The position numbers and the translations under genes were made by a program. Positions 3,065 through 25,178 of a DNA stretch of 27,010 bases are shown here, piece after piece. Within the stretch, counting starts at the first letter, position 1; each line of letters starts with the position of its first letter. Under the pieces are notes generated by a model. The model worked only from the letters and a program-made list of their open reading frames with translations, ran no database searches and had not been told where the DNA came from. The DNA comes from a virus. The stretch spans positions 1 through 27,010 of IMG/VR virus record IMGVR_UViG_3300006789_000125; one strand, written 5' to 3'.

Positions 3065-6000
3065 ATGCAGCTAACTACAGATTGGACTGAGATCTCTACT
3101 TCCTCTATCATACTTCAGAAACATGGTAATAATTCAGTAGCACTTGTCTATTCAGCAACAACCCCAGCTGCAGATGAAGGTAATTTATTCACCTTAGTGG
3201 AAGGGAATACAGCACAGCTTTTCCCTGCTGTTGCTGGAGAGTCTTTGTGGGCTAAGGCCTCAAAGGACACCTCTGAAATATCTGTAGTAGAGTACAATGC
3301 AAGTGGGTATGATGCAGAAGGCATAGAAACTCTAAGGCACTTCACATACAACCCGGGAACAGACAAGCTAGAAGCTGACAAAGCAATTGAGACTACACTT
3401 AACTCACTGTTCTTAGGTGAGCAGCATAAGATGTCTTCTGGGGCATCAAATATATACTTTACAGACCTGACTAAGGAGGCTAACTATCATCCGGTGTGGG
3501 GAGGTATTAAGGACCAATCTTTAGTATCTAACCAGCAAGCAGGTGAAGGTATTGAAGCACCTAAAGCAAGAGTATTTGGGGATTATGAAGTACTTGCACT
3601 GGGTGGAAATCCTGTTGACAATACATCCATACCTTATGATGGAGATAACTTCTTTCCTTTCAATATCTCTGGCTTGGGTATTACAACTAGGGTTGCAGAG
3701 GCTGTAAGTGCCTCTCACAAACTAAAGTACGAACTGTCTGTAGATGGCACTGCTGTTTACGTGCAATACCTGGACCATAGCGGGTTAGCAATTAACCAAG
3801 ACTTAACCTGGTACTTTGACCATCCCTTGGATATTGAGGCAGGCTCAACTAACCATGCATCTATTACAAAAGTAGCTGTGGACGCAGATGGAGTAGAAAG
3901 TGACATTGGATTATTACTTGTCTGTGAGGGCGATGAGTTAGATGGAGGTTCTGAGAGATACCAAACCACAGTAAAGAACAGAAGATTTGAAGATAAAGAG
4001 ATAGCGTACAAAGATGACGTCAACTCTATTGTATCTGGCTCAGTGTACAAAGGACAGTATAATGCAAGTACTGACGTACCCTCACTGCCTACAGGCTCTG
4101 ACTCCTTAGGAGATCACTACAGAGTATCTGTTGATGGTAATGGATTTGAGACTGGAGATCTTCGTATATTTAACGGAACTTCTTACGATCATATTCCTGT
4201 AAAAGCTGTAACATTAAATGAAATAGAGACATCTACCTTAAAGGTATATGATGTATATGTTAAGGCCAATTACTTGGGTGAAACAAGCAATGGCACCGCC
4301 TTATATCCTTATAGCTCTATACAAGCATCAATAGATAACGCAGCTGACGGGGACTCTATTTACCTAGATGGGATATTTAATATTACTTCTGAGGTGTCAA
4401 TTCCCAGTACTAAGTCATTGTCCTTCTATGGTAATGATAAGACTTGCATTCAATACTCCACATTCAATCCAGCTAACGGAGATGTCATATCTTTTGACGG
4501 AGATGGAACTAAGATCCTTAAGTTCACAAACATAAAGTTTAAGAATGCTGGTGGATATGGTCTTTACTTGAAGAAGACTTTTAAGACTGTAATTGAAAAT
4601 TGTGGCTTTGAAAATAACGGATGGAATGGACAAGGGCTTCATACAGTACTTGACAGCACCTCTTCCGGTGTACTGGGTTACGACTCTACTAGCTCAGAAT
4701 TGCAGGCATTCTACGCAGGTCCTAATGCTTCAAATGGTGGGGCAATGCGGGTGCAAGAGGCTACTCAAGTAGAGGTGGTTGGAAATAATGTTAAGAATAA
4801 TCTAAGAGGAATAAGGCTTCAGGATTGTGGTATAAATGGGTACGGTTTTATTACTCGTAATGTATCTTCACAAAACATTGAAAGTGGAATATACCTAGCT
4901 GCGGGATCTCTATATGGATGCCAAAACATTGTTGTAACCATTAACAGCTCTGCGTACAATGCCAATAACGGACTTCTTTGTGTTGGAGGAATTAATAATA
5001 AGTTCTCCCAGAATGAGGTCACTGGTAACTGGAATGCAGGGTGTTACAACTGGGCTTCTACAAACTTTACTCTAAGAGATTGTGGACTGTATGACAACAA
5101 CCGATCAGAGTTCAACGGTATTGGAAATACAGGTGATGCTAAGGGCAGTATCGCAATAGGTGATGCCTATAGTTCACTGGGTACGACAATCAGTATGAAT
5201 CCAAATGCTAGATTTATAGCTGAGATATTAGATACTCAAGTACACTACACAGGACTAGGTTCTAATATTAGTAGGATTGGTATTTTCTTAACCCCAGAAC
5301 TGAGTGCCTTACCTTCAAGCAGTAAGAACTTAATAAAGATTGATGATGTAGGTTTTATAGGCCAGGATCATTGCTTCGATTTTAGTGAAGTTGACCTGAC
5401 TAATATTGACTTGTTACTAGGAGACAACTCGTACCAGAATGTAGGTGATACTATAATTAACCCGGCTTTAGATGGGGACTACTATGAGTTGCCTTATAGC
5501 AACCACATCACTAATCTTACAAAAGCTGACTTCACCTTAAATAGTACTGGAGGTATTTCCATCAAGGAAGGTGTTGGAGGGGCTGTTTTAAACCCTTATC
5601 AAGTTAATGAAATACAAGCTATTGCTCATGGAGCTGAAGTAAAAATAGTACTGAAAGGCAGTAATAAGATTCAATTCACTGTACCTGTATCTGGCTGCTC
5701 TATTGACGGAACTATGGTAAACTCAGTTTTATCTCAGGCCCTAGTTCAGCTTAACGACTTATTTACCAACACTACTGGTTTCGCTAGTGGCGGCAATCCT
5801 GTCACTGATTTTACTCTTAGTGGGGATAACCTTACACTGACTCTACAGGACAGTACTTCATATACAGTTGATGTTACTACCTTGGGTGTAGACGAGAATA
5901 AGTTTGTATCAAGCGGTGCCTTAAATGGATCTGACTTAGAGCTGACTATGAATGATTCTAGTATCATAACTATTGATGCAGTGAACATGATTAATGGGTC

Positions 6001-8101
6001 TAGTCTTCCTGCGAGATCTGAGGATTGGTATATAGCTTATGGCAATAACTCTGGAGATGTAGTTACGTATGCATCAGTAGTTTCTGCAATTAAAGGTAAG
6101 CAGCCATTTTATAATGGGGACTTCCTAGAGAAAGGTGAAGAGTATGTGTGGACTCATGAAGTTGGTGGATCTTATATACTAGGCATATACTCTGGTACTG
6201 AAGAGACTTCTGATGAAGTTGACATAATGTTCAACAATAAGTGGTCTACCAACTTCAAGTTCAGCTCCACTAACAATACAGTAAGGGAAACCTCTGTAGG
6301 TGTGGATGTAGGATCTAGGTATGCTTCAGGGTATAATATAAGCAACTCAACACTTCTTGCACTGTCTTATGACACTGACAACTACTTAAGACTTTGGGAT
6401 ATCTCTTCAGGAAGTAGAGTACTGATAGGAGAGTCAAATACTGGCTTAGTGGGTGATAGTCAAACTATCTTCTTTGGTGGAGACAACCAGCCTAATGCTA
6501 AGTTTCCTGTAGTGGTTAAGAGATTTTCAGAGTGGACTTTGGTTCATGACTTTGATAGCTCTGAAACTTCTGTTGTGACTGGTTTGGAAGCTGACTCAAT
6601 AGTAAGATCTAATATATCTATTGAAGCTGGCGAAAAGCTTATGGTTAACTTAGACTTCGCAGGTAGGACTCAAAGGTTTGGTATTGAGTACTCTGGAGCA
6701 TCTAGTGGTGTTAATAATGCTCAGGTCTACATAGATGGAGGTGAAGGTTTTGCCTATGGTACTCAAGAGCAATTAGTTAAGAGTGGCACTTTCTGGACTT
6801 GGAATACTAGCGCATCCAACTACGATCCATCAGGACCGCGTTGGACTAAGGGAGTTAGTGTTAACCTTGGCATGATATCATTAGTATACAACAATGATAA
6901 CAGTCTGGACTTATACAGTGAGGACACAGGAGAGGTCATAGCTACCAAGACAGTTGATTTGGATGGCAGTCCTATAAACTTCTTCTACGGAGTAAATGAA
7001 GCCACAACTCCGAGCTATATGCCTAGCATATCTAAGCAGGCAATAGGTGCAGGCTCTCAGCCAATCACAACATTTGCACCTGATATTAGCAACCAATCCT
7101 TTGATATAACTGAAGGTGAGGCTTTTAATATCCAGATACTACTAGATGCAAACAGTGATATAGCCAATGTCTTTGGTGAGGAAGATGCTCCAAGCTGGGC
7201 CGTAATGAAGCAGGACACCGGTAATCTCTTTGGTACTGCACCTGCATGGTCTAATAATGGGGATACTTATGTCATTAATTGTAAGGCAGCAAATGCTTTA
7301 GGTGGCATAACATCTTTCCAAGTTACCTTGAATGTACTGGAGCAAACGTATACCAATACCAAATCCTTGAACTTTGAAGATGGTGTTTCCTCCTACTTAG
7401 GCGGTAATGCTGCCTTGATTACCTCATTAGAAAGAGCCAGCAATGGTTCAGGTGCTGGTGATGCTTGGTCGTTTGGTCTGTGGTTTAAAGGATCTACGGC
7501 AAGCTCTGGGCAGACTGTGTTTTACTTCGGCAGTAATGATGTAGGTAACAATGGACATATCGAGCTAAGGCAAACAAACCACAACGGTCTAAAACGCCTA
7601 AGACTTAGGTATGGTACTAATGGTAACTACATACAAATAACTACTCCATCAGGTTCCATAGATCCCACTAAATTCCAACACATCTTAGTTACTTATAACG
7701 GAGATGAGACTGGGGTAGCTAGCGGAGATACATCTAACTACTATGGTGCTTTCAATATTTATATTGATGGAGTTCTACAATCAACAAGCAACACACACTC
7801 TAACTATGGGTACAGTGGGGCTCTTGTAGGCCAGAACTTTAGATTTGGTAGATTCGCTAGTGGTACTTACGCTAAGGATATGCTATATAATCAGATGGCT
7901 ATTTGGGGAAGTGATCAGTCTGCTAATGTCGCTGACATATATAATGGAGGGGTTACACAAGACTTAAGCTTACTATCTGATACGCCTGAGCACTACTATG
8001 AGATAGAGACATCTACGAGTACTGTTCAAGATTTAATTGGAAACGCGCATCTAGTTGGTTACAACTTCTCAAGTAATGATCTTGTAGATGATGCACCTTA
8101 A
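3065..8101 (+). CDS. Giant multidomain fibre/tailspike-like protein with beta-helix and LamG-like C-terminus
   Basis: The protein has 1678 residues and a modular virion-adhesin architecture. Residues 1-78 form an N-terminal domain shared with the next gene. Around 333-380 is a fibre-type YNASTDVPSLPTG...GDHYRVS segment. Residues about 396-800 show short strands, Asn ladders and repeated GxxI/NNG turns of a right-handed parallel beta-helix, as in pectate-lyase-like tailspikes. Residues about 905-980 have two short beta repeats. Two related domains lie at about 1018-1154 and 1186-1325. Residues about 1338-1428 look like a cadherin/Ig-type domain, and about 1430-1670 look like a LamG/concanavalin-A-type carbohydrate-binding domain. 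No catalytic residues can be assigned by eye. Its place between terL and portal is unusual for a tail fibre, so it may be a head-attached fibre. Host-surface or polysaccharide binding is inferred from the folds. The start has AGGAT at 3051-3055. Confidence 0.8.
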   Translation: MQLTTDWTEISTSSIILQKHGNNSVALVYSATTPAADEGNLFTLVEGNTAQLFPAVAGESLWAKASKDTSEISVVEYNASGYDAEGIETLRHFTYNPGTDKLEADKAIETTLNSLFLGEQHKMSSGASNIYFTDLTKEANYHPVWGGIKDQSLVSNQQAGEGIEAPKARVFGDYEVLALGGNPVDNTSIPYDGDNFFPFNISGLGITTRVAEAVSASHKLKYELSVDGTAVYVQYLDHSGLAINQDLTWYFDHPLDIEAGSTNHASITKVAVDADGVESDIGLLLVCEGDELDGGSERYQTTVKNRRFEDKEIAYKDDVNSIVSGSVYKGQYNASTDVPSLPTGSDSLGDHYRVSVDGNGFETGDLRIFNGTSYDHIPVKAVTLNEIETSTLKVYDVYVKANYLGETSNGTALYPYSSIQASIDNAADGDSIYLDGIFNITSEVSIPSTKSLSFYGNDKTCIQYSTFNPANGDVISFDGDGTKILKFTNIKFKNAGGYGLYLKKTFKTVIENCGFENNGWNGQGLHTVLDSTSSGVLGYDSTSSELQAFYAGPNASNGGAMRVQEATQVEVVGNNVKNNLRGIRLQDCGINGYGFITRNVSSQNIESGIYLAAGSLYGCQNIVVTINSSAYNANNGLLCVGGINNKFSQNEVTGNWNAGCYNWASTNFTLRDCGLYDNNRSEFNGIGNTGDAKGSIAIGDAYSSLGTTISMNPNARFIAEILDTQVHYTGLGSNISRIGIFLTPELSALPSSSKNLIKIDDVGFIGQDHCFDFSEVDLTNIDLLLGDNSYQNVGDTIINPALDGDYYELPYSNHITNLTKADFTLNSTGGISIKEGVGGAVLNPYQVNEIQAIAHGAEVKIVLKGSNKIQFTVPVSGCSIDGTMVNSVLSQALVQLNDLFTNTTGFASGGNPVTDFTLSGDNLTLTLQDSTSYTVDVTTLGVDENKFVSSGALNGSDLELTMNDSSIITIDAVNMINGSSLPARSEDWYIAYGNNSGDVVTYASVVSAIKGKQPFYNGDFLEKGEEYVWTHEVGGSYILGIYSGTEETSDEVDIMFNNKWSTNFKFSSTNNTVRETSVGVDVGSRYASGYNISNSTLLALSYDTDNYLRLWDISSGSRVLIGESNTGLVGDSQTIFFGGDNQPNAKFPVVVKRFSEWTLVHDFDSSETSVVTGLEADSIVRSNISIEAGEKLMVNLDFAGRTQRFGIEYSGASSGVNNAQVYIDGGEGFAYGTQEQLVKSGTFWTWNTSASNYDPSGPRWTKGVSVNLGMISLVYNNDNSLDLYSEDTGEVIATKTVDLDGSPINFFYGVNEATTPSYMPSISKQAIGAGSQPITTFAPDISNQSFDITEGEAFNIQILLDANSDIANVFGEEDAPSWAVMKQDTGNLFGTAPAWSNNGDTYVINCKAANALGGITSFQVTLNVLEQTYTNTKSLNFEDGVSSYLGGNAALITSLERASNGSGAGDAWSFGLWFKGSTASSGQTVFYFGSNDVGNNGHIELRQTNHNGLKRLRLRYGTNGNYIQITTPSGSIDPTKFQHILVTYNGDETGVASGDTSNYYGAFNIYIDGVLQSTSNTHSNYGYSGALVGQNFRFGRFASGTYAKDMLYNQMAIWGSDQSANVADIYNGGVTQDLSLLSDTPEHYYEIETSTSTVQDLIGNAHLVGYNFSSNDLVDDAP

Positions 8102-14453: not shown

Positions 14454-15974
14454 ATGGCTATTGAAATAACAGAATTCGCTAATGTCTCTATCTCTGTATC
14501 CCCTACGGGCGTACAAGGTGGTAACTTTGGCATCTTAGGATTCCTAGCAAGTGACGGTGATTCGGTACTTGCAGGTAAACAAATACTCCCAGCAGAGCGT
14601 TACCGTTCTTATACAAGCCTGGCTGGAGTAGCTGCTGATTGGGCCGCTACATCTGAAGTATACAAAGCGGCTACTGCCTTCTATGGACAGACCCCTACAC
14701 CTACTGACTTTGTTGTTCAGATGTGTTATGAGTCTGCACAGCCTGCTACATTAACTGGTGGCGGTACTGGAACTGCTGATGAGCTTAAAGCGGCTATCCT
14801 AGGATCTGGTGATAGTGCTAACTTTACCATTGAGATGGATGCCTTAGGTGAAATTGTAGTAAGTGACTTAGATCTTACTAGTGTTCCAGCTCCTGCTACC
14901 TTTGATGCAATTGCATCTGAAGTTACTTTGCAGTTGATTGCTGGAGGACTAACAGGTATCAGTGTAACTCACAATGGATATCAATTCGTTGTAAAAGGTG
15001 TTGCAACAGGTGCTGGCGTAGGTTTGCTAACTGCTGCCACTGGCGGTGCTGCTGAGCTACTAGGACTACAGGTACATCAGGCTAAACTATCTCAAGGCAT
15101 AGATTCAGAAACTGCACTAGATGCCTTAGCTGCTGCTGATGTAGCCGGTATTGATGCAGTAGGTCTAGTCACTGATAAGAAGTGGCGTGATAATAACTCT
15201 GCCGTACAGCCTGCCAATGTTACTGAGGCCATAGCTGTATACGCCGAAGGTGCTAAGCGTATCTTCTGCAATACTTCTAATGACACTACTTGCATTAGTG
15301 CTTTCGATGATAACAACCCAACTGATGTAATTCATAAGTTGAAGAACCGCACACTACGGTTTACTTTATCTACGTTTAGTAAGGATGCATCAGCGTACCC
15401 ATCTGCTTCAGTATTTGGTCGTGCTGCCTCTGTAAACTTCTCAGCTGTTGACAGTACTATTACTTTGAACCTAAAGCAGATGCCCGGTATTTCTGCCGAG
15501 AATCTTACACCTAACGAACTGGCTAACCTACGTGCTCGTTTCGGTTCAGCTATTGTTCAGATTGGTACAGGTATTAATGCCCGTACTGGCTTTGTAGACT
15601 CACGCATGTCTTCTGGCTCATGGCTAGATACTACACATGGCCTGCTGTGGTTAGAGAATCGCTGTGAAGTTGATATCTTTAACTTACTGTACCAGAGTAA
15701 TACTAAGATACCTTACACTCAGGAAGGTATTAATACTGTTGTATCTAAGTTAGATGGATCTCTTCAGGCTGCTGTTCGTAACGGACTATGCGCCCCTGGG
15801 TACTTGCCAAATGATGATAGATTCTTGCCTAAGGGATATCGTATCAATGCAGTATCTCTTGAAGACACTCCTAGCTCAGACAAATCAAACCGAGTGTACA
15901 TGGGCATCTCTTTCGAGATGGTTGGTGCTGGTGCATTGCATGCAGTCGAGATCTCTGGCAGCTTCGCAGAGTAA
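14454..15974 (+). CDS. Tail sheath protein (DUF3383-type)
   Basis: The protein has 506 residues and follows the DUF3383 contractile sheath pattern: the N-terminal ITEFANVSISVSPTGVQ with FGILGFLAS, the segment AERYRSYTSLAGVAADW followed by YKAATAFYGQTPTP, and the C-terminal domain TKIPYTQEGINTVVSKLDGSLQAAVRNG. About residues 100-205 form an inserted, small-residue-rich domain that would project outward from the sheath. Sheath monomers hold the extended state and contract to drive the tube through the envelope. The start has AAGGACC upstream. It is followed by a stable hairpin and then the tube gene. Codon choice is of the highly expressed type, as for the capsid gene. This gene establishes myovirus morphology. 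Confidence 0.88.
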   Translation: MAIEITEFANVSISVSPTGVQGGNFGILGFLASDGDSVLAGKQILPAERYRSYTSLAGVAADWAATSEVYKAATAFYGQTPTPTDFVVQMCYESAQPATLTGGGTGTADELKAAILGSGDSANFTIEMDALGEIVVSDLDLTSVPAPATFDAIASEVTLQLIAGGLTGISVTHNGYQFVVKGVATGAGVGLLTAATGGAAELLGLQVHQAKLSQGIDSETALDALAAADVAGIDAVGLVTDKKWRDNNSAVQPANVTEAIAVYAEGAKRIFCNTSNDTTCISAFDDNNPTDVIHKLKNRTLRFTLSTFSKDASAYPSASVFGRAASVNFSAVDSTITLNLKQMPGISAENLTPNELANLRARFGSAIVQIGTGINARTGFVDSRMSSGSWLDTTHGLLWLENRCEVDIFNLLYQSNTKIPYTQEGINTVVSKLDGSLQAAVRNGLCAPGYLPNDDRFLPKGYRINAVSLEDTPSSDKSNRVYMGISFEMVGAGALHAVEISGSFAE

Positions 15975-16015: not shown

Positions 16016-16501
16016 ATGTATCAGTACAGCTTTGCAAATACTGACCTAATCGTAACAGCAGACTACCCAGGGAATCAAAACCCAGCCACATTTAAGATTC
16101 GTGGCTATGCTGCTGGTGAGGGTCTGATTAATATCCAACGCCGTTCTCCTATTGCTACCACCATGTTCGGTGCATACGGTGATATGGTTGTCTCCATGCT
16201 ACGTATTAAAGGTGGTGATGTAGCCTTCCCAGTTCTTATGAATGCTCCCGAGAACAAGTACCTGCAAGACTGGGCCAACTGGTTCCAAGAGCAGGCTATG
16301 GCTGGTGGTGAACTTATTCAGCCTATTCAAGTTGCCTTCCGAGACAACATGGGCAAAGACCAAGCACAATGTACTAATGGTGTGATCTTGGCTATGCCTG
16401 GTATGGTTCGTGGACAGACTATGAACACTGTTACTTGGGTTCTGTCGTTCGAGAAAATCGAATACGAGCGTAACTCAGGTGCAGATGCGAATAACCTTTA
16501 A
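16016..16501 (+). CDS. Tail tube protein (DUF3277-type)
   Basis: The 161-residue protein directly follows the sheath gene. It fits the DUF3277 tail tube family in size and pattern: N-terminal YSFANTDLIVTADYPG, then MFGAYGDMVVSMLRIKGGDV, then DWANWFQEQAMAGGE and a late VTWVLSFEKIEYERNSGADANN. Tube proteins stack as hexameric rings around the tape measure and form the DNA conduit. The start has GAGGGT upstream. A genuine intrinsic terminator follows 10 bases after the stop, so the sheath-tube transcripts probably end partly there. It is among the most abundant virion proteins. Confidence 0.85.
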   Translation: MYQYSFANTDLIVTADYPGNQNPATFKIRGYAAGEGLINIQRRSPIATTMFGAYGDMVVSMLRIKGGDVAFPVLMNAPENKYLQDWANWFQEQAMAGGELIQPIQVAFRDNMGKDQAQCTNGVILAMPGMVRGQTMNTVTWVLSFEKIEYERNSGADANNL

Positions 16502-16540: not shown

Positions 16541-16564
16541 ACGTTAAACTATTTGGAGAAACTT

Positions 16565-16954
16565 ATGAAAGATTACCATGCCGTACTTAAAGACGGACAA
16601 GAAATTTATATTGCTCAATGGAGTGCTTCCGTTGCGTACCAGAACTTAACACAAGTATGTAAAGCGTTTGGCCCAGCTCGGGTTGAAGCTATAGCAAAGC
16701 TTGATGAACACAGCATGGCCAACGCTCGTGCTAGTTTTATGGATAGAGAAGATGGCAAGCTCTTGTACGATGCTATGTGTCACTTCGTATGTACTGTAGG
16801 TATGGATGGCAAGCGTATTCTACCTAACAACTTTGACCAGATGTTTTCAGAGGACATCAACCTACCTCTTGAGATTTTCACTCATGTAGTGCATGCGGTC
16901 TACGCTAAGTTTTTCGGACACGGCTCAGTAGAGGACAGCTCCCTAGCCAGCTAA
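16565..16954 (+). CDS. Tail assembly chaperone, short (zero-frame) product
   Basis: The protein has 129 residues. It lies between the tube and tape measure genes, the classic place of the lambda gpG-type chaperone. The sequence is mostly helical (VAYQNLTQVCKAFGPARVEAIAKL; LLYDAMCHFVCTVGM; LEIFTHVVHAVYAKFFG). I chose the ATG at 16565, with GGAGAA at 16555-16560, over an in-frame TTG at 16553 that overlaps that binding site. Near its 3' end a slippery sequence at 16909-16915 can move ribosomes into the -1 frame to give a longer form. The short form would coat the tape measure during tail assembly and be absent from the mature virion, by analogy with lambda. Confidence 0.8.
   Translation: MKDYHAVLKDGQEIYIAQWSASVAYQNLTQVCKAFGPARVEAIAKLDEHSMANARASFMDREDGKLLYDAMCHFVCTVGMDGKRILPNNFDQMFSEDINLPLEIFTHVVHAVYAKFFGHGSVEDSSLAS
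16909..16915 (+). promoter_or_regulatory. Probable -1 programmed frameshift site (GTTTTTC)
   Basis: In the zero frame the codons are AAG TTT TTC GGA. Slipping back one base on TTT TTC gives GTT TTT, so the second tRNA pairs fully and the first mismatches at one codon position. The -1 frame has a TAA at 16906-16908, just before this heptamer, and then stays open to 17169. The zero frame ends at 16952-16954. The slip must therefore occur between 16909 and 16954, and this is the only good slippery run there. Partly complementary GGCT...AGCC and GAG...CTC segments downstream could form a stimulatory stem. Confidence 0.65.
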
Positions 16955-17169
16955 ATACTGCTCAGGAAGGTGGAGGTGTCGGACTAGATTACTCTGAGAT
17001 CTTCCCTGAACTGAATGGTTATCTACTGAAGCCAGTACTGAATGATCCACCCCTTTGTTCCTTGAGAGAGCTTGATGATGGTACATATAATCTATACGAC
17101 ATAGAACGTATGCATCATATCATGGAACTACAAAAACACATGAACCCACCAGCACCGCCTCCTGAATAG
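16909..17169 (+). CDS. Tail assembly chaperone, -1 frameshift extension (gpT-like part)
   Basis: This frame is open between the TAA at 16906-16908 and the TAG at 17167-17169 and has no usable start codon with a ribosome binding site. It is therefore expected only as the C-terminal part of a fusion made by -1 frameshifting from the 16565 gene. The fusion would be about 201 residues: 117 from the zero frame and 84 from this one, starting with RTRLSRG. The extension contains YSEIFPELNGYLL, the segment LRELDDGTYNLYDIERMHHIMELQKH, and a proline-rich end. The helical, acidic segment is like the T part of lambda gpGT, which binds the tube protein and recruits it to the tape measure-chaperone complex. 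This accounts for the otherwise empty 240 bases before the tape measure gene. Confidence 0.72.
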   Translation, partial: VFRTRLSRGQLPSQLNTAQEGGGVGLDYSEIFPELNGYLLKPVLNDPPLCSLRELDDGTYNLYDIERMHHIMELQKHMNPPAPPPE

Positions 17170-17193: not shown

Positions 17194-20100
17194 ATGGATG
17201 ACTTTAATAGCCGCGATAACTTTAACGATAGCACAAGAGCTTTTGTTAAAGTAGATAGCGATGTAGAAGAAATAGAAAGACAGGATGAGTCCTACACACC
17301 AGATATGGATGGCCAACATACAAGTTCTTATGATGGACCTATCATTACTTCTGACCAAGCTGCTGAAGCAAGACGAGGGTTGGAGAACTTACAAGGTATG
17401 AACCTAGCTCCTGAGATCTTAGCAGCAGCTAGTGTAAAACTTACGGGAGTTTTAGATAACTACCAAGCACAGCGTAATGAAGTGCAAGATGAAAGAGATT
17501 TTGAGCATACCTCCCTTGAGGAGGCTTACGGTGGAATGACGGCTGCGGATTTGCAGCTTCGTCGTCTTCAAGGTGACAGCCCTAGCGACGTGACAGGATA
17601 CTCAATGGGTACTCGCATGGCTATCAAGGACTTAGCCTCTGATCAGTTCCGTAGTATGAACACTTATGGTGTGGCCAGTATTGCTGAGCTTGATGCAGTA
17701 CGTGCCCGAGCTGGCAATGCTATGGAGATCTCACCACACAAGTTCTCACAAGGTCTAAACATTGATGCTTCCCAAATAGCAAGTAAGGTGACTACTAAGA
17801 GTGGACGGACTTCTAGGGAGCAACAGAACTATGGCCGTAAGGAAGTAATACAGGCTGTTAAGTTCTTCGAAGGTATCGGAACAAACTTAGACCTTGGTCC
17901 TGGAGGTCGTTTAAATCTCCATAGTGGTAATGAAGAAACTGACAGCAAACAAAGAGATGACTTAGAATGGGCCATAAACTACACAGCCCGTTTTGCTGAT
18001 AAAGTTATTCATCAGGACACCAAAGACTCTTCAATATATGAAGTACGTAAAGAGGCAACTCAACAGGCTGTACTTAATCGTATGCTGGAAGGTAAGAGAT
18101 ACAACAAACCTACCAAGGATGGTAAGTATTTCATGTTTGACGAAAAGACCCAACTACCTGTACCTTTAGACTTTGGTGTTCCAGGGTTGATTGACAACCT
18201 ATCTAGGGGTGGCATAGTCAATGGCGAGTTCGAAGGTGATTCTGAGTTTAGTCAGAGAGAGTTTCAGCAAGCTGTACTAACTGGCAGTCACTCAGAAGGC
18301 TACTTGGCAGCAGCTGAGCCTAGTGTGGAAAGGTCACTTTGGCCTAAGCCTAGAGGAATTAAGAAGGGCTCTCCAGAAGAAACAGCATACTACCAAGAAC
18401 GTAGGGCAGCTTACGAGCAAGAGAAAGAGGACTGGAAGAGAGCCTCAGCAATCTTGAATGCTCAGATGACTACTAACCAGAACGAGACTGACCCACAAAA
18501 CAAAGGAAAGCGCTGGACAGGCTACGATGTAGATCCTGAGCAAGAGAAGAGGAATGCCTTGTTTGAGGAGGCCGCCATGCTAGACATAGACATGGTAGGA
18601 AGGAAGTCTTCAGGTAAAGTATCAAGATCATTCACTGTGGTTGCAACAGATACAGGGTTTGAGAGAAAGTATTCTGAAGTAGTTCAGAAAGGGTCTGATA
18701 GGGCAGGCAGGTACCGAGGAGGTGAAGACAGATCAGATCGTGATGACTTCATAGAAGCTGGCATGGAGTATGATCCAGTTAAGTCTTTCGTAGGTCCTAT
18801 GCCGATTAAGCAAGGTACTGATGCATGGAAAGCACAACGTAAAGGTAACATCACTGCATCTGTAATTGGCCGCACTACTGAGGAGCTGGCTATAAACTTA
18901 GCCAACGAGCGTCTTGGTAATGAGGAGGAGTTCCTATCTTCTGGACATGTAAAAGAAGGTAACTTATACGAGGACAATGTAGGCAGAAGCTTCATGCACG
19001 AGCATGGGGAAAGACTTGGCCTAACAATGAAAGAAGCCTTCTTTGAAACTAATGCAGACTTACCCGGCTTTGGAGTATCTCCAGATGCTAACCTGTATGA
19101 TAAGGATGGTAAACGATCTCTATTGGAACTGAAGTATCTGGCCTCTGATGGTACGATGGATAAGTCAATGAAGACTTACAAGGAGCAGTTGCAACTTCAA
19201 ATGGCTGTAACAGGAGCTAAGGAAGCACACTTTTACAGACAGAACAAACGCACTGGTGAGAGCGCCTATGATTTAGTCAAGGCTGATCCAGAACTACAGG
19301 CAGAGCTAATCAAGCGTGGTCAGGACGCACATGAACTTGCCTCTACACTTGACGCTATAGGAGTGGATGATTTGAAAAAGAAACTCGCAAGTAGAAAGGA
19401 TAGAGCTGCTGATAAAGAAGCTGGTCCTGCTACTGTAATGAAGACTGAAGAAAAGGCACAGGCTGCTAAAGCTACTGTCATGGATCTAAGCAAGGCTGCA
19501 ACTAATGTACTGTCCGATGCTATTTCAAATGCAAATGGTCCTGTATCAGGTGACGGCTCAGGAGTTACTTCTATATCCAAGAAGGAATTCGGAGAACGCT
19601 TAGAGCGAGAAAAGAATATTGCCAACATGAAAACCTATACCGAAAATGTTGTTGGTATGAAGATGGCTCAAGATGCGGAAGATGCGGAACAGGCCAATGA
19701 AGCTGCTAAGGATGCTGCTAAGGCTAATAAGGATATGGCCAGAGCCTCTAAAGAAGCTTCAGCAAACTTAAAGAGGTTCGGATCATCTTTACTTCAGGTT
19801 GCTGGTGCTGTTGCAGGAGTCGCACTAGAAGGTAATGACACTGAGATGGCAACTCAACGGATTGCTTCTGAGACTGGTATGGATGCACAGCGTACAGAAG
19901 GAATGCGTAGGATGCTTGCTGAGGGTGGGGTTAAATATGAAGATACTGCGGGTATAATGCAGCAATTTGGTAGTCTATCTGGTGAGGCAGCAAGCTTTGA
20001 CACATCCCCTATGCTACTCCGCATTAACGATAGGATGGGAAAGTACGGATCATTGCATGGCCTGCCAAAGCTCACCCACTCTGATGTCTATAATAAGTCT

Positions 20101-20964
20101 GGTGAAGCGCTTGCTGAGATGATTACTAAAAGAACTAACCAGCTTGAGAGTCCTGAGGCAAGACGAGACTACCTAAGAGGGTGGGGGCTAAGCAAGATGG
20201 CTCCTGCATTTGATAGAGATAATCCTAATAGGATAACTGCCGAGGGCATGTCCAATGTAATAGGGGACATTGACCCAACGGAAAGATTCAGTATTAACTC
20301 AGCTATTGAGTCAGCTGCTGATGTAGTACGCCAAGGAAAGGAAGGTTTCTCTTCATTCCTTGGAGAGACAGGTAACTCTCTTGCTAAGTACACCACTGAT
20401 GCTATTGTGCCAGGTGCTGCGATTGCAGGAGGAGTAGTTACAGCCGTAGGAGGAGGTAAGCTTGCTGTCAAGGCCCTTAAAGCTGGAGGACCTCGCTCTG
20501 TTGCTTTAGGCAATACCTTAGGTAAAGCTGGGTCTGTCTTAGGTAAAGGAATAGTCAGGGGAGGAGGTGCTGGATTGGCTATCGCTGGAACTAGGGCGGT
20601 TACTGGAGTGGAAGACGATGGAGGCATAGCAGACTCTCTTATGGATATTGGAGAGTTCACAGCAATGGGAGCCGCTGTAGGCTCAATGGTTACTCCTGGA
20701 CTAGGTACAGCAATAGGTGCCGGTGTTGGTGCCGTTATAGGTGCAGGTAATGAAATATACGAATGGGCCTCACAGCCATCGCCTGATACTATACCAAGCA
20801 CTAGCTTAGGAGTAGCCTCACCTCAGTCCTCATCAAACGCTGGAGCAAGCCTAAACAGTAACGTAACTGTGAATGTTGAGGTATCTCCCGATGGAGTACA
20901 AACTACCGTAAATGACAATGGTAATGAGTACATCGACACAAGCACAACCTACAGCCAAGACTAG
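17194..20964 (+). CDS. Tape measure protein with embedded YqaJ/lambda-exonuclease-type nuclease domain
   Basis: The protein has 1256 residues. It follows the frameshifted chaperone and precedes the baseplate genes, as tape measures do. Residues about 740-900 are long Ala/Lys/Glu helices. Gly/Ala-rich hydrophobic segments at about 1070-1086 and 1155-1187 could cross a membrane. In the middle, about 535-720, is a nuclease domain: QGTDAWKAQRKGNITAS (540-556), GNLYEDN with E593, GFGVSPDANL with D631, LLELKYL with E645 and K647, and YKEQLQLQMAVTG with Q667. These match the PD-(D/E)XK pattern of YqaJ/lambda exonuclease enzymes, with every expected residue present. Residues 1-530 are charged and unassigned. 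No peptidoglycan hydrolase motif is seen. The tape measure fills the tail lumen and sets its length; on infection it would carry the nuclease into or across the envelope. The start ATG at 17194 has a GAGG upstream. Confidence 0.85.
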   Translation: MDDFNSRDNFNDSTRAFVKVDSDVEEIERQDESYTPDMDGQHTSSYDGPIITSDQAAEARRGLENLQGMNLAPEILAAASVKLTGVLDNYQAQRNEVQDERDFEHTSLEEAYGGMTAADLQLRRLQGDSPSDVTGYSMGTRMAIKDLASDQFRSMNTYGVASIAELDAVRARAGNAMEISPHKFSQGLNIDASQIASKVTTKSGRTSREQQNYGRKEVIQAVKFFEGIGTNLDLGPGGRLNLHSGNEETDSKQRDDLEWAINYTARFADKVIHQDTKDSSIYEVRKEATQQAVLNRMLEGKRYNKPTKDGKYFMFDEKTQLPVPLDFGVPGLIDNLSRGGIVNGEFEGDSEFSQREFQQAVLTGSHSEGYLAAAEPSVERSLWPKPRGIKKGSPEETAYYQERRAAYEQEKEDWKRASAILNAQMTTNQNETDPQNKGKRWTGYDVDPEQEKRNALFEEAAMLDIDMVGRKSSGKVSRSFTVVATDTGFERKYSEVVQKGSDRAGRYRGGEDRSDRDDFIEAGMEYDPVKSFVGPMPIKQGTDAWKAQRKGNITASVIGRTTEELAINLANERLGNEEEFLSSGHVKEGNLYEDNVGRSFMHEHGERLGLTMKEAFFETNADLPGFGVSPDANLYDKDGKRSLLELKYLASDGTMDKSMKTYKEQLQLQMAVTGAKEAHFYRQNKRTGESAYDLVKADPELQAELIKRGQDAHELASTLDAIGVDDLKKKLASRKDRAADKEAGPATVMKTEEKAQAAKATVMDLSKAATNVLSDAISNANGPVSGDGSGVTSISKKEFGERLEREKNIANMKTYTENVVGMKMAQDAEDAEQANEAAKDAAKANKDMARASKEASANLKRFGSSLLQVAGAVAGVALEGNDTEMATQRIASETGMDAQRTEGMRRMLAEGGVKYEDTAGIMQQFGSLSGEAASFDTSPMLLRINDRMGKYGSLHGLPKLTHSDVYNKSGEALAEMITKRTNQLESPEARRDYLRGWGLSKMAPAFDRDNPNRITAEGMSNVIGDIDPTERFSINSAIESAADVVRQGKEGFSSFLGETGNSLAKYTTDAIVPGAAIAGGVVTAVGGGKLAVKALKAGGPRSVALGNTLGKAGSVLGKGIVRGGGAGLAIAGTRAVTGVEDDGGIADSLMDIGEFTAMGAAVGSMVTPGLGTAIGAGVGAVIGAGNEIYEWASQPSPDTIPSTSLGVASPQSSSNAGASLNSNVTVNVEVSPDGVQTTVNDNGNEYIDTSTTYSQD

Positions 20965-20972
20965 GAGGCCGT

Positions 20973-21947
20973 ATGACTATTAAAAGATTTGGCCAAGCAG
21001 TTAAGTTGGAAGTGTTTGGCCCGGATAGAGAGACAGTATTATTTGACTCAGATGGGTTGAGAGTAGACTTTGACATTGTAAACATTCCAGGTTTTTCAAG
21101 AGCCACTTTCAAAGTATGGAACATGGATGAGAAAATGATTAAGCAAGTACAGCATGGTGAGCGCTATTGCAGGCTCACCTGTACTTTGCATGATGATGCT
21201 CCCATGGTAATAGCGGATGGGTTCTACATCTCGAATGCTTATGAGCAGACTATAGTACCAGATAGTGTGACAAATATCTTCGGGTACTCTGCCCTAAGAA
21301 AGGACTTCCTTAACAAGCAGATTAAGTTAACTGTTAAGGATCCTTCACTTAGGAATATAATGACTCAAATATCTCAAGAAATTAAATCTAGACCTGATAA
21401 TAAGTTCAGGGGTAAGGTTATATACAGAAACTTCCCTGGAGCTGACCTGGATTATATACCTCCTAGAACTTATAAATCTAGGACAGGGTCAGTAGAGGGA
21501 CTTCTTGAAAATATAAGCAAACCTAGATTTAAGTACTTTACGATAGGTGAAGATATTGTTTTAATGTACCAGCCTACTGCCGACAACCTTGACCAAACTG
21601 ATCTAGCAACCCGAAAGGATACAATAGAAATAGATCCTAACAACCTAAGCTCAGCCCCTAAGATTGGGCCTGGTCAGTTAGTCCTTGAATGTAATTTAGA
21701 CTCAGGAATCTACCCTACATCTATTTTAGATATTTCTAATATAGTGACAGCAGTAGTAGATGCCGAGGATAAGACCTTACAATTAGCTCCTAAGTATTTA
21801 AAAGAGGCAATAGCAGGGTTTACTAAATACCAAGCACTTACTGTACAACATCGTGGATCAAACTTCACTAGACAGTGGGATACCATTGTAACAGCGTCTA
21901 GCCCTACTAAGGGCAAAGACTCACCAATAAGAGGATGGAATGTGTAA
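20973..21947 (+). CDS. Baseplate hub-type protein
   Basis: The 324-residue protein starts after a strong AGGAGG and directly follows the tape measure gene. The N-terminal domain has the layout of myophage hub proteins: RFGQAVKLEVFGP, then LRVDFDIVNIPGFSRATFKVWNM, then ADGFYISNAYEQT and a helix in DPSLRNIMTQISQEI. The second half contains TGSVEGLLENI, FKYFTIGEDIVLMY and a region of strands near VLECNLDSGIYP. Hub proteins sit beneath the tube and hold the spike. The stop overlaps the next start (TAATG). The role is inferred from order and pattern; a tail distal-tube protein is the alternative. Confidence 0.65.
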   Translation: MTIKRFGQAVKLEVFGPDRETVLFDSDGLRVDFDIVNIPGFSRATFKVWNMDEKMIKQVQHGERYCRLTCTLHDDAPMVIADGFYISNAYEQTIVPDSVTNIFGYSALRKDFLNKQIKLTVKDPSLRNIMTQISQEIKSRPDNKFRGKVIYRNFPGADLDYIPPRTYKSRTGSVEGLLENISKPRFKYFTIGEDIVLMYQPTADNLDQTDLATRKDTIEIDPNNLSSAPKIGPGQLVLECNLDSGIYPTSILDISNIVTAVVDAEDKTLQLAPKYLKEAIAGFTKYQALTVQHRGSNFTRQWDTIVTASSPTKGKDSPIRGWNV

Positions 21948-22945
21948 TGGCTAAACCAACACCATGCCGCATAACCTTCACAGATGCAGACACTGGGATC
22001 GAGCAACAAATTCGGTTCCATGCTGTGATGGTAGAGCAACACGCAGCAAAGAGCGTCATTACCAAGTTCCCGGTCATGACAGGCTATGAGGTATCTCGTA
22101 ATGCTATTAAAAAGAATAGGGAGTTTACTGTAACGGCTGTGATTAGTAATACAGTACTGGAAGATGCCAACAACTATGATGTAATGACAGGGGATATTAG
22201 CAAAACCATGCATAAAGCTTGTTCTGAATTAGTGGACAACGCACAGGTATGCCAAGTAGTCTCCAACCTTGGAAACTACGACCCGGTAGTATTTAATAGC
22301 TATACAACTAAGACTGACAAAGATTGGTCCAATGCTATAATGATAATCCTAAAGGGAGAGCAGCTTCAGGTAAAAGGTAATTTGAACAAGACTGCACCTA
22401 CTGAGTTGGCATTTAAAGTATTATCAGATGCTGAGGCAGAGGTCCGTAGAGATGAACTGTACGCACAAGGTTATGATATTAGTTTAGAAACATCCTTGCA
22501 TGAGTGTACTATGCCTCTCGGTACTGACTTTGTAGTAGAGAACCATACTGAGCAAGGTGTTCCTAAGAAGACCACCTTCATAAATACTGGACAGGACAAC
22601 ACCACAGATGCGTATAATTACCAAGTGCATCGGGAGCTTGATACTGTAGCAGGAGATAGTGGACAGACAGAGCAAGGGGAGCTAACCAGATCTATTTACG
22701 GATCTTACTTCGAGGATATCTATATCTCTGATGTGGGAGGTCCCTTAGATACAGAAGGTACAAGCAACTTCATAGTAGCCCCTAGTGCCGACTCAGCCAC
22801 TAGTACTAGTCCTGACAGCTTTCAAGATCTGCCCTCCGCTGATGATGTAGTGGGATCTGCTTCTAAGAAGTCCAGTAACCCTATAACTACTATTACTAAA
22901 GTAGTCCCTAACGAGGATGCTATTGAGTCAGGTAACGTACTATGA
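21947..22945 (+). CDS. Dit-like baseplate/tail protein
   Basis: This 332-residue protein resembles the Dit-like N-terminal domain family of small myophages: FHAVMVEQHAAKSVITKFPV, MTGYEVS, then REFTVTAVISNTVLED, the family's strand run ending in a G/A-x-(I/V)-S-N motif. The helical part (SKTMHKACSELVDNAQVCQVV) and strand AMIMILKGEQ follow. The C-terminal 100 residues are Ser/Asp/Thr-rich and probably flexible. Dit-like proteins form the ring that links tube and hub. I chose the ATG at 21947, which has AGAGG upstream and overlaps the hub stop, over the ATG four codons earlier that has no spacing to that site. It overlaps the next gene by four bases (ATGA). Confidence 0.68.
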   Translation: MAKPTPCRITFTDADTGIEQQIRFHAVMVEQHAAKSVITKFPVMTGYEVSRNAIKKNREFTVTAVISNTVLEDANNYDVMTGDISKTMHKACSELVDNAQVCQVVSNLGNYDPVVFNSYTTKTDKDWSNAIMIILKGEQLQVKGNLNKTAPTELAFKVLSDAEAEVRRDELYAQGYDISLETSLHECTMPLGTDFVVENHTEQGVPKKTTFINTGQDNTTDAYNYQVHRELDTVAGDSGQTEQGELTRSIYGSYFEDIYISDVGGPLDTEGTSNFIVAPSADSATSTSPDSFQDLPSADDVVGSASKKSSNPITTITKVVPNEDAIESGNVL

Positions 22946-23625
22946 TAAGCCCTGACAGATATTGCTATAACCTACCTGGCCGAATCGTAGAGTACTTTCC
23001 AGACACTCAGACAGCTACTGTTAAGATCTGTGTGGAGAAGACTTACGGTGATACTGAGGTAGAGGCCAGTAAGGTAACTCGTGAGGACTTGAGAGATGTT
23101 CCAGTACATACCCCTGGTGGTGGTGGATGGCATGTAACCTTTCCTATAAAAGAAGGAGATACTTGTCAACTAACCTTTAGCCAGATCGGATATGACTACT
23201 GGCTGTTCAATGACAAGGATGAGTCAGGCACCCTCTCAGGGCTCCCTAAACCTCATCTGTACCGTCAATTCTCTGAAGAGGATGGATATGCCTTAGTAGG
23301 ATATAACACGCTACCACGGGCCGTACAGGACTACTCAGAGGTACATAGTCAATGGAGGAACGAAGATGCCTCACAGAAGATCAGTCTAAATGAGGATCTG
23401 TCCATAGACATCAAAGCCGGTACTACTACCATAAACATTACTAAGGATGGTACAATAGCCATAGCAGCCCCTCTAGTGACCGTGACAGGAGATCTGACAG
23501 TAGATGGTACTATCACATCAAATACATCTGTCGTGTCTCCTAGCATGGTTACAGGCGGTAAGGAGCTTACTAACCACAATCATCCGGCTGGCACACCTCC
23601 AGGAACCACAGGAGCTAATAATTAA
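22942..23625 (+). CDS. Baseplate spike protein (gp138/gpV-like)
   Basis: The 227-residue protein has an N-terminal OB-fold pattern of the Gp138/gpV type (LPGRIVEYFPDTQTATVKI; VPVHTPGGGGWHVTFPIKEGDTCQLTF). A repetitive beta stalk follows (DLSIDIKAGTTTINITKDGTIAI then VTVTGDLTVDGTITSN). The C-terminal tip contains NHNHP, with H212 and H214. In membrane-piercing spikes of P2, phi92 and relatives, a trimer with such an HxH motif binds an iron ion at the apex, so the same is expected here. It sits at the centre of the baseplate and punctures the outer membrane, which points to a Gram-negative host. It overlaps its neighbours by four bases and one base. Confidence 0.82.
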   Translation: MISPDRYCYNLPGRIVEYFPDTQTATVKICVEKTYGDTEVEASKVTREDLRDVPVHTPGGGGWHVTFPIKEGDTCQLTFSQIGYDYWLFNDKDESGTLSGLPKPHLYRQFSEEDGYALVGYNTLPRAVQDYSEVHSQWRNEDASQKISLNEDLSIDIKAGTTTINITKDGTIAIAAPLVTVTGDLTVDGTITSNTSVVSPSMVTGGKELTNHNHPAGTPPGTTGANN

Positions 23626-23978
23626 TGGCTAATCTAGCACTAGACAAAGCCACCAACGATTTGATCAAACCCTCCCAAGGCCAGTCCAGAGTCTCCGAAG
23701 GTCGTTACACTGTCCAGCAGTGTCGATCTCGGTTACAGGTCTGGCTAGGTGAGTGGCAACTTGATACAAATCAAGGGTGGATCAACTACGATGACTTTGG
23801 CAAGAACTTTGACCAATTCGATATTGAGACACGGGCCCGTCAAGTGATACTTGGAACTAAGGGAGTCCAATCTATTGACTCAATGGATGTAGCCTACAGT
23901 AATCGCAATCTATCTATAACCTTCACCGCCACTACTATATATGGCGAGATTTCAACCACTGTCCCTTGGGGCATTTAA
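23625..23978 (+). CDS. Baseplate wedge protein, gp25/gpW-like
   Basis: The 117-residue protein lies between the spike and J genes, where the GPW/gp25 family wedge subunit is encoded. The size is right. The segment VQQCRSRLQVWLGEWQLDTNQGWINYDDFG is in the family style, with the short loop regions and the late strand TFTATTIYGEISTTVPWGI. Family members bind the sheath's first ring and help start its contraction. The start overlaps the spike stop by one base (TAATG). Recognition rests on motif style and order. Confidence 0.75.
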   Translation: MANLALDKATNDLIKPSQGQSRVSEGRYTVQQCRSRLQVWLGEWQLDTNQGWINYDDFGKNFDQFDIETRARQVILGTKGVQSIDSMDVAYSNRNLSITFTATTIYGEISTTVPWGI

Positions 23979-23987
23979 GGAGGCCAT

Positions 23988-25178
23988 ATGGCTGGCTTAA
24001 CAGACGAAGGCTTCACAGCCGATACCTTGAGTGAGATACAGGCACGTATCGAGGGCAGGTTAAAAGTATACGATCCAGAGATAGATTTGGATCCAGCATC
24101 ACCTGACGGGCAGAATGTATCTATCTTTTCTTTTGAGGTAGCTACCTTGTGGCAACAGTTAGGGATGGTATACAACAGCTATAACCCGGACATTGCATCT
24201 GGTAAAGGACTTAGAAATGTGGGACTGTTAACAGGCATTCCCTTTGGCTCTGCAAGTAGATCTTCTGTAAACCTTGCATTAGGAGGTACAGGAGGTACAG
24301 TAATCCCAAAAGGGTCTATAGTTGCTGACCAGGATGGTAATGAGTACAGTACTTCCTTTGCAGTTACATTGCCAGGGTCTACTGAGTGCGTGGCATTGCA
24401 AGCTGGACCTATTCCAGTAACCGCAGCCAATACCTATACAATCAAGACAGTTGTACCAGGGTGGACAACGGCCACTCAGTCAGTTGATGGAACCTTGGGA
24501 GGTATAGCACAAACTCCCCAGCAGTACCGCAACCTTCGCAACCGTACAGTAATGAGGAACTCTTCATCTGTCGCAGACGTTGTCGCTTCGCGCCTCTACG
24601 AACTAGGACTTGAACAGGCCTCAGTTGTTAATAACGATTCTTCAGTAGATACCTTACCAGATGGAACTCCTCCTAATAACCTGCACATAACCTTAGGAGA
24701 GTATTCAGGAGTAACTCAAGAACAAATAGCCCTCACCATCCTAGAAGCAAAAGGACTAGCCTGCCCTACATGGTCAGTTGGTAAAGATGCAAGCAACGGT
24801 GGTACATGGAAGGAAGTAGAAGACAATCAAGGAGTAACTCACAGAATCTACTTTGATGAAGCACAGCCTGTAGAAATTCATGTAGGTATGAGTATTACAT
24901 TCCTGGACGAGGACTATGCAGGGGCTGTGGAGCAAATCAAACAAGCTGTAGCAGACGACATTAACTCTTACCTTACTGGTGAGGACGTTGACTGGTCTAG
25001 GCTGTTCGGAGTAATAACACAGTTCGGAAAGGCCTCGATAGATATTGCTACCTTCGTACCTCAGTTATTTATTAGTAATACAGCAACACTGCCCACTACC
25101 CCAGGCAATGTCTCTATTAGTTCTTTTGAGTACGCTACTTGCTCTGTAGATGACATTGACATAACTGTGAGTAACTGA
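23988..25178 (+). CDS. Baseplate J-like wedge protein
   Basis: The protein has 396 residues and a strong ribosome binding site (AAGGAGG). Its N-terminal half has the Baseplate_J pattern: an acidic LDPASPDGQ segment, the helix FEVATLWQQLGMVYNSYNP, and GKGLRNVGLLTGIPFGSASRSSVNLALGGTGGTVIPKGSIVAD. The next part contains GNEYSTSFAVTLPG and the gpJ-like RTVMRNSSSVADVVASRLYELG. The C-terminal half has the strands and helix EQIKQAVADDINSYLTGEDVDWSRLFGVI typical of the domain that contacts DUF2612/gpI-type proteins. It forms the wedges of the baseplate. It is followed one base later by the next gene. Confidence 0.85.
   Translation: MAGLTDEGFTADTLSEIQARIEGRLKVYDPEIDLDPASPDGQNVSIFSFEVATLWQQLGMVYNSYNPDIASGKGLRNVGLLTGIPFGSASRSSVNLALGGTGGTVIPKGSIVADQDGNEYSTSFAVTLPGSTECVALQAGPIPVTAANTYTIKTVVPGWTTATQSVDGTLGGIAQTPQQYRNLRNRTVMRNSSSVADVVASRLYELGLEQASVVNNDSSVDTLPDGTPPNNLHITLGEYSGVTQEQIALTILEAKGLACPTWSVGKDASNGGTWKEVEDNQGVTHRIYFDEAQPVEIHVGMSITFLDEDYAGAVEQIKQAVADDINSYLTGEDVDWSRLFGVITQFGKASIDIATFVPQLFISNTATLPTTPGNVSISSFEYATCSVDDIDITVSN

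Follow-up and report, generated by a model that had tools for sequence, protein, structure and literature searches.

Tape measure proteins (TMPs) are usually regarded as the rulers and channel formers of phage tails. Enzyme-carrying tape measures are already known and include a fused RNA polymerase in phage P23-45, peptidoglycan hydrolases, and the endonuclease of Tme. In Thermus phage P23-45, gp96 is a TMP-fused virion RNA polymerase (PMC10770324). Tme is a tape-measure-related effector of the Streptomyces davawensis contractile injection system (PMC11126660). Here we describe a TMP with an embedded nuclease from the IMG/VR virus contig IMGVR_UViG_3300006789_000125, whose 27,010 nt (hereafter "the window") represent only a 27-kb genome fragment. 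The nuclease has the fold of the lambda exonuclease/LHK-Exo/YqaJ family (PF09588; Z ~20), together with its active site and the residues of its 5'-phosphate pocket. Unlike members of that family, it is embedded in a 1256-aa tail protein and has no adjoining gene for an annealing protein. As in P23-45 gp96, a nucleic-acid enzyme lies within a TMP and is proposed to act on entering DNA; the enzyme of gp96 is an RNA polymerase, placed N-terminally in a giant TMP of an extremely long tail, whereas the window has a predicted exonuclease in the middle of the TMP of a contractile tail. Similarity to Tme lies in a TMP-like protein with a nuclease domain and in delivery through a contractile tube, which we infer for the window. 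Tme has a C-terminal, EndA-type endonuclease and belongs to a bacterial injection system, in contrast to a mid-chain exonuclease in a phage. Phage polyvalent proteins (Iyer et al. 2017, as cited in later work) are large proteins of several domains that are injected and include effector enzymes; to our knowledge, they are not tape measure proteins.

Close counterparts are TMPs of the Chaseviridae. Those of phiEcoM-GJ1 (gp62), ST32 (ORF66), 4HA13, and VPs20 resemble the window TMP in slot, length, and embedded YqaJ domain, but no homology is detectable between their flanks and the flanks of the window TMP, and the tested Cleopatravirinae TMPs also have a transglycosylase domain. Our searches of open literature turned up no account of a phage tape measure that contains an exonuclease. 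An earlier note on this DNA was not aware of a described system with this layout; the TMP-fused RNA polymerase of P23-45 is a close precedent in kind.

Genomic setting of the tape measure gene

Judging from its genes, the window appears to be a fragment of a Chaseviridae-like phage with a contractile tail. The nearest relatives of its sheath and portal are Chaseviridae, and its tail genes (sheath, tube, chaperone, hub, spike-position, and wedge) are collinear with those of phiEcoM-GJ1, Vibrio phage VPs20, and Aeromonas phage BUCT696. The tail genes are as follows.

14454..15974, + strand: tail sheath (phrog_205, E 9e-87; Chaseviridae are the best relatives)
16016..16501, + strand: tail tube-type structural protein, KPP10_Orf10 family (Pfam E 5.5e-9; phrog_280)
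16553..16954, + strand: tail assembly chaperone (phrog_11820, E 4e-13)
16909..17169, + strand: -1 frame ORF overlapping the chaperone end (stop-to-stop ORF, with a GTTTTTC run in the overlap)
17194..20964, + strand: TMP gene with embedded nuclease (open frame, 1256 aa; Chaseviridae-like order)
20973..21947, + strand: baseplate hub (phrog_196, E 1e-9)
21935..22945, + strand: tail protein at the GJ1 gp64 position (phrog_817, E 1e-16; gene order)
22942..23625, + strand: tail protein at the baseplate spike position (PF18352 N-terminal domain, E 5e-17; gene order)
23625..23978, + strand: baseplate wedge subunit (phrog_120, E 5e-24)
23988..25178, + strand: baseplate wedge subunit (phrog_6, E 2e-42)

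The frame at 17194-20964 is continuous, as had been claimed from the sequence, and lies between the tail assembly chaperone and the baseplate hub, which matches the Chaseviridae TMP slot. Because the tail gene order is that of Chaseviridae, this ORF fills the tape measure slot. A -1 frame ORF that overlaps the chaperone gene is common upstream of tape measures, and the ORF at 16909..17169 is likely a frameshifted chaperone extension. Curated TMP domain models (TMP_3 and PhageMin_Tail) had no match in the window or in Chaseviridae TMPs, and a tblastn search of phage records with the whole window TMP returned none; TMP sequences diverge quickly, so a missing match to a TMP model says little. Elsewhere in the window, between terminase and portal, a 1678-aa ORF with a right-handed beta-helix (3065-8101) has no counterpart there in phiEcoM-GJ1.

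An independent 52.5-kb contig (G001) provides a close relative. Its length and phrog_414 RNA polymerase fit the Chaseviridae, which have genomes of ~52-56 kb and a single-subunit RNA polymerase. The family is described as having one such polymerase; G001 has two single-subunit RNA polymerase-like ORFs, at L009:13676-15505 (-) and L008:4130-6121 (-), with phrog_414 E-values of 6e-72 and 2e-25.

The embedded nuclease domain

Several approaches show that the resemblance to YqaJ nucleases exceeds chance. Pfam YqaJ (PF09588) matches TMP residues 545-675 (E 5.9e-6; score 27.1 bits, cut-off 22). A profile of 12 TMP nuclease domains matches LHK-Exo (1.1e-26) and lambda Exo (1.1e-16) among PDB sequences, while the single domain sequence had no real match there in a phmmer search. 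AlphaFold gave a pLDDT of 42 from an input of two sequences; when metagenomic relatives were added, the resulting 24 sequences gave a domain model with pLDDT 89.1 and pTM 0.85. The best solved matches of this model in Foldseek are LHK-Exo (E 5.8e-11) and lambda exonuclease, and VIA-align gives Z-scores of 20.2 to 6m9k and 20.1 to 3syy (LHK-Exo/lambda Exo, Z ~20).

A PD-(D/E)XK core with E, D, ExK, and Q motifs is present. The active-site set of the window domain comprises W545, R549, E593, D631, E645, K647, Q665, and Q667; the residues that the earlier note named are all at the stated positions. These map to lambda Exo as W545 to W24, R549 to R28, E593 to E85, D631 to D119, E645 to E129, K647 to K131, and Q665 to Q157. 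The 5' phosphate is bound in lambda Exo by W24 and R28, and E85, D119, and K131 belong to the active site (PMC7496540). The window domain does not keep the residues that line the lambda Exo channel (R45, K49, K76, and R137), so that a trimeric ring is without sequence support in the TMP nuclease; most of these residues are likewise absent from LHK-Exo. From profile and model evidence together, residues ~534-735 (18793..19398) constitute a complete lambda-exonuclease/LHK-Exo (YqaJ) domain with predicted catalytic and 5'-phosphate-pocket residues intact. The note's proposal of a complete YqaJ/lambda-exonuclease-like nuclease inside a tape measure is therefore borne out by domain homology, gene slot, and predicted structure; the interval that it gave, 18799-19350 (residues 536-719), covers the domain, which we place slightly wider, at ~18793-19398.

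Distribution in Chaseviridae and beyond

The nuclease is a family-wide TMP component. Mid-chain YqaJ matches occur in the TMPs of phiEcoM-GJ1, VPs20, BUCT696, PVN03, Myduc, Fifi44, and ZPAH140 (those of VPs20 and PVN03 slightly under the Pfam cut-off), and our own HMM detects the nuclease in all Chaseviridae-type TMPs gathered, whether from isolates or metagenomes, and in both subfamilies. Where complete, these ORFs are ~1190-1346 aa long. The domain is thus not peculiar to one phage, and its carriers include the coliphage phiEcoM-GJ1; another family member, flopper, is listed on E. coli K-12 MG1655. No YqaJ domain was found in six TMPs (459-784 aa) from more distant sheath relatives, namely Felixounavirus EC6, Rosemountvirus BP63, Pseudomonas KIL4, Ab105-1phi, PSTCR3, and Vibrio K195.

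A 7-kb contig carries the same region as the window at 100% identity, and the G001 TMP, which is 61% identical to that of the window, has the nuclease domain (YqaJ E 1.9e-7). That the gene is an assembly chimera or was wrongly joined has a negligible probability: no supporting point was found, and the same architecture in independent contigs and many isolate genomes rules it out. None of the 16 near-complete Chaseviridae-type genomes has a free YqaJ exonuclease gene, which would have pointed to a chimera according to the note. Each of these genomes has at most one YqaJ domain, always within the TMP; a looser first scan missed it in 4 of the 16, in which our own HMM finds it. A separate phrog_107 5'-3' exonuclease is present in all 16, and RecT in none. 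In G001, a gp2.5-like ssDNA-binding/annealing protein is encoded at L010:3094-3771 (-) (phrog_112, E 7e-7); it was not detected in the 15 other genomes.

Among Cleopatravirinae, the TMPs of GJ1, Myduc, and Fifi44 have a transglycosylase domain (an SLT domain in GJ1), which was not found in TMPs of the window, G001, or Nefertitivirinae. Since only some TMPs carry it, the nuclease is the more constant cargo.

Conservation and selection along the protein

In a 12-row domain alignment, identity to the window is ~20-27%, apart from G001 (79%). Strictly invariant columns are W13, R17, T22, G57, E61, D99, E113, K115, Q133, Q135, M138, and D166, which by sequence comparison are mostly the active-site set. 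Of 33 distinct long-ORF copies, all but one keep the full motif string W-R-E-D-E-K-Q-Q; the exception is pAh6-C, a frameshifted record in which the first two motif residues fall in another ORF. In two Nefertitivirinae-type records, pAh6-C and one other, the TMP gene is divided into two ORFs (L030:4608-7741 and L053:3321-6970), with the break in or just after the nuclease; these may be either real frameshifts or sequencing errors.

Region-wise identity and dN/dS were obtained by comparing the window TMP with that of G001 (on L003). The regions are as follows.

17341..18573, + strand: N-terminal TMP part, residues 50-460 (76% identity to L003, dN/dS 0.17)
18574..18786, + strand: variable linker, residues 461-531 (28% identity, dN/dS 0.60)
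18793..19398, + strand: lambda-exonuclease/YqaJ nuclease domain, residues ~534-735 (Pfam, own HMM, PDB profile, AlphaFold, Foldseek, VIA-align)
20392..20478, + strand: hydrophobic, membrane-like segment, residues 1067-1095 (Kyte-Doolittle)
20683..20745, + strand: second hydrophobic segment, residues 1164-1184 (Kyte-Doolittle)
20794..20961, + strand: conserved C-terminal tip, residues 1201-1256 (82% identity, dN/dS 0.11)

The nuclease domain is 79% identical between window and G001, with dN/dS ~0.12, compared with 33% identity and dN/dS 0.39 for the C-terminal region (residues 840-1200); these sequence comparisons indicate strong purifying selection on the nuclease. On a rival reading, the domain would be vestigial or a purely structural DNA-binding element devoid of catalysis, as length determination needs no enzyme. 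We reject this reading as very improbable because the active-site residues are kept in all copies while the rest drops to ~20% identity and because the dN/dS of 0.12 is far under that of the C-terminal TMP region.

Residues 50-460 have no known fold and no Pfam match, and this part has no detectable homology to the N-terminal parts of other Chaseviridae TMPs. In G001, the stretch before the nuclease (L003:9255-9700; TMP residues ~420-570) is 37 aa longer and mostly unrelated to that of the window, so that a hypervariable joint adjoins a highly conserved nuclease domain. The hydrophobic segments (Kyte-Doolittle, 19-residue windows > 1.3) have comparable counterparts in the G001 TMP. By analogy, the C-terminal tip is probably the baseplate-proximal end of the TMP. 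A fully helical TMP of ~1250 aa would extend over ~188 nm. Tails of 110-130 nm have been reported (PMC8472413), and the ICTV profile gives 116-166 nm for Chaseviridae. The excess length fits, as a consistency argument only, with some of the chain serving as cargo and not as a ruler.

Origin of the fusion

In a tree of nucleases, the TMP copies form three well-supported clades (window type, Nefertitivirinae, and Cleopatravirinae). The tree does not support a single TMP clade apart from stand-alone phage exonucleases, nor does the AU test reject one (p 0.12). Profile comparisons of TMP flanks gave nothing significant between the window lineage and other Chaseviridae or with Felixounavirus-type TMPs, and a scan of bacterial genomes yielded stand-alone YqaJ proteins only, with no TMP fusion. 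On these sequence data, the TMP nucleases may go back to a single ancient fusion or to repeated capture.

Probable delivery and proposed role at infection

Lambda-exo-type enzymes require free 5'-phosphorylated dsDNA ends, and host DNA is circular. In Chaseviridae phage 4HA13, mass spectrometry of virions places the protein annotated as tail tape measure among those of high abundance (PMC9699118). TMPs of other phages are ejected with the DNA (PMC11661146, PMC13190303, PMC10770324), and three TMP copies have been seen in phage 80alpha (PMC11661146). From sequence and by analogy, the Chaseviridae virion very probably contains an active nuclease. Since TMPs are ejected in other phages, the nuclease would be delivered at the entry point; the earlier suggestion of delivery at injection is plausible on this analogy, and we consider entry into the cell along with the DNA probable.

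The nuclease would be packed in the tail lumen as a mid-chain part of the TMP, and the two would leave the tail ahead of or with the genome, which would place the nuclease at the host entry point. There it would most likely resect the 5' strand at each end of the linear genome as it enters. Direct terminal repeats of ~3 kb are stated for the Chaseviridae at the family level (PMC12842549). Once resected, these repeats would present 3' tails complementary to each other, through which annealing, circularisation, or recombination could take place before phage gene expression. An end-dependent enzyme in few copies should be better matched to a genome with two ends than to a host chromosome that is circular, and end processing is favored because the incoming phage genome is the first linear DNA met. 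Our best explanation, to which we give close to an even chance, is that the TMP nuclease is a catalytically intact 5'-3' dsDNA exonuclease cargo that is delivered at injection and acts likeliest on the phage's own genome ends. That processing of these ends is its main role has slightly less than an even chance. Against this explanation, the tail lumen would leave little room for a folded domain this large, the lambda Exo channel residues are not kept, RecT was not found in the 16 genomes and the gp2.5-like protein only in G001, and another 5'-3' exonuclease occurs in every one of these genomes.

Of the roles listed in the note, trimming of the entering genome ends fits better than degradation of host or plasmid DNA, which is disfavored by the need for free ends and the few copies. 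A delivered nuclease could clear the cell by attacking resident DNA (plasmids, prophages, and broken or restricted host DNA) or rival phage DNA. Arrival with the virion before gene expression would suit such a role, and the HNH and endonuclease VII-type enzymes of Chaseviridae could create ends. We nevertheless regard it as unlikely: free 5'-phosphorylated dsDNA ends are needed and host DNA is circular, each virion would bring very few enzyme copies, the first linear DNA encountered is that of the incoming phage, and every genome examined encodes a separate soluble exonuclease.

Counter-defence is improbable. In this reading, the nuclease would work where DNA is injected, degrading or blocking the nucleic acids or DNA ends on which host immunity relies. 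A TMP-tethered enzyme would be well placed for this, since the TMP and the injected DNA are where host systems, SNIPE among them, act (PMC13190303). It has no known defence target, however, and its retention in all of these phages, with their many hosts, points to a core function and not to an accessory one tied to particular hosts. At least as improbable is a role in morphogenesis, in which the nuclease would trim the end of DNA protruding into the tail or clear nucleic acid from the lumen. There is a parallel in the T4 head completion protein gp4, a virion-associated nuclease required for packaging (PMC7824862), but the TMP nuclease lies mid-chain, distant from the DNA end in the neck, and the six TMPs of more distant relatives are without it.

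Implications for annotation and phage biology

Database labels already reflect the nuclease: PHROG 149 is named 'exonuclease' and the SKA49 protein 'putative endonuclease'. The profile of PHROG 149 is 1242 positions long and matches Nefertitivirinae tape measures as a whole, and pipelines may therefore name tape measures exonuclease. The present analysis corrects the annotation of Chaseviridae TMPs, which are now named tail fibre, exonuclease, endonuclease, or hypothetical. A conserved exonuclease in every examined Chaseviridae tape measure would imply, on comparative sequence grounds, that the virion delivers a DNA-processing enzyme at infection. More tentatively, it may be that an entire phage family injects a TMP-tethered exonuclease that resects its own genome ends at the entry pore, in which case circularisation or repair would precede phage gene expression.
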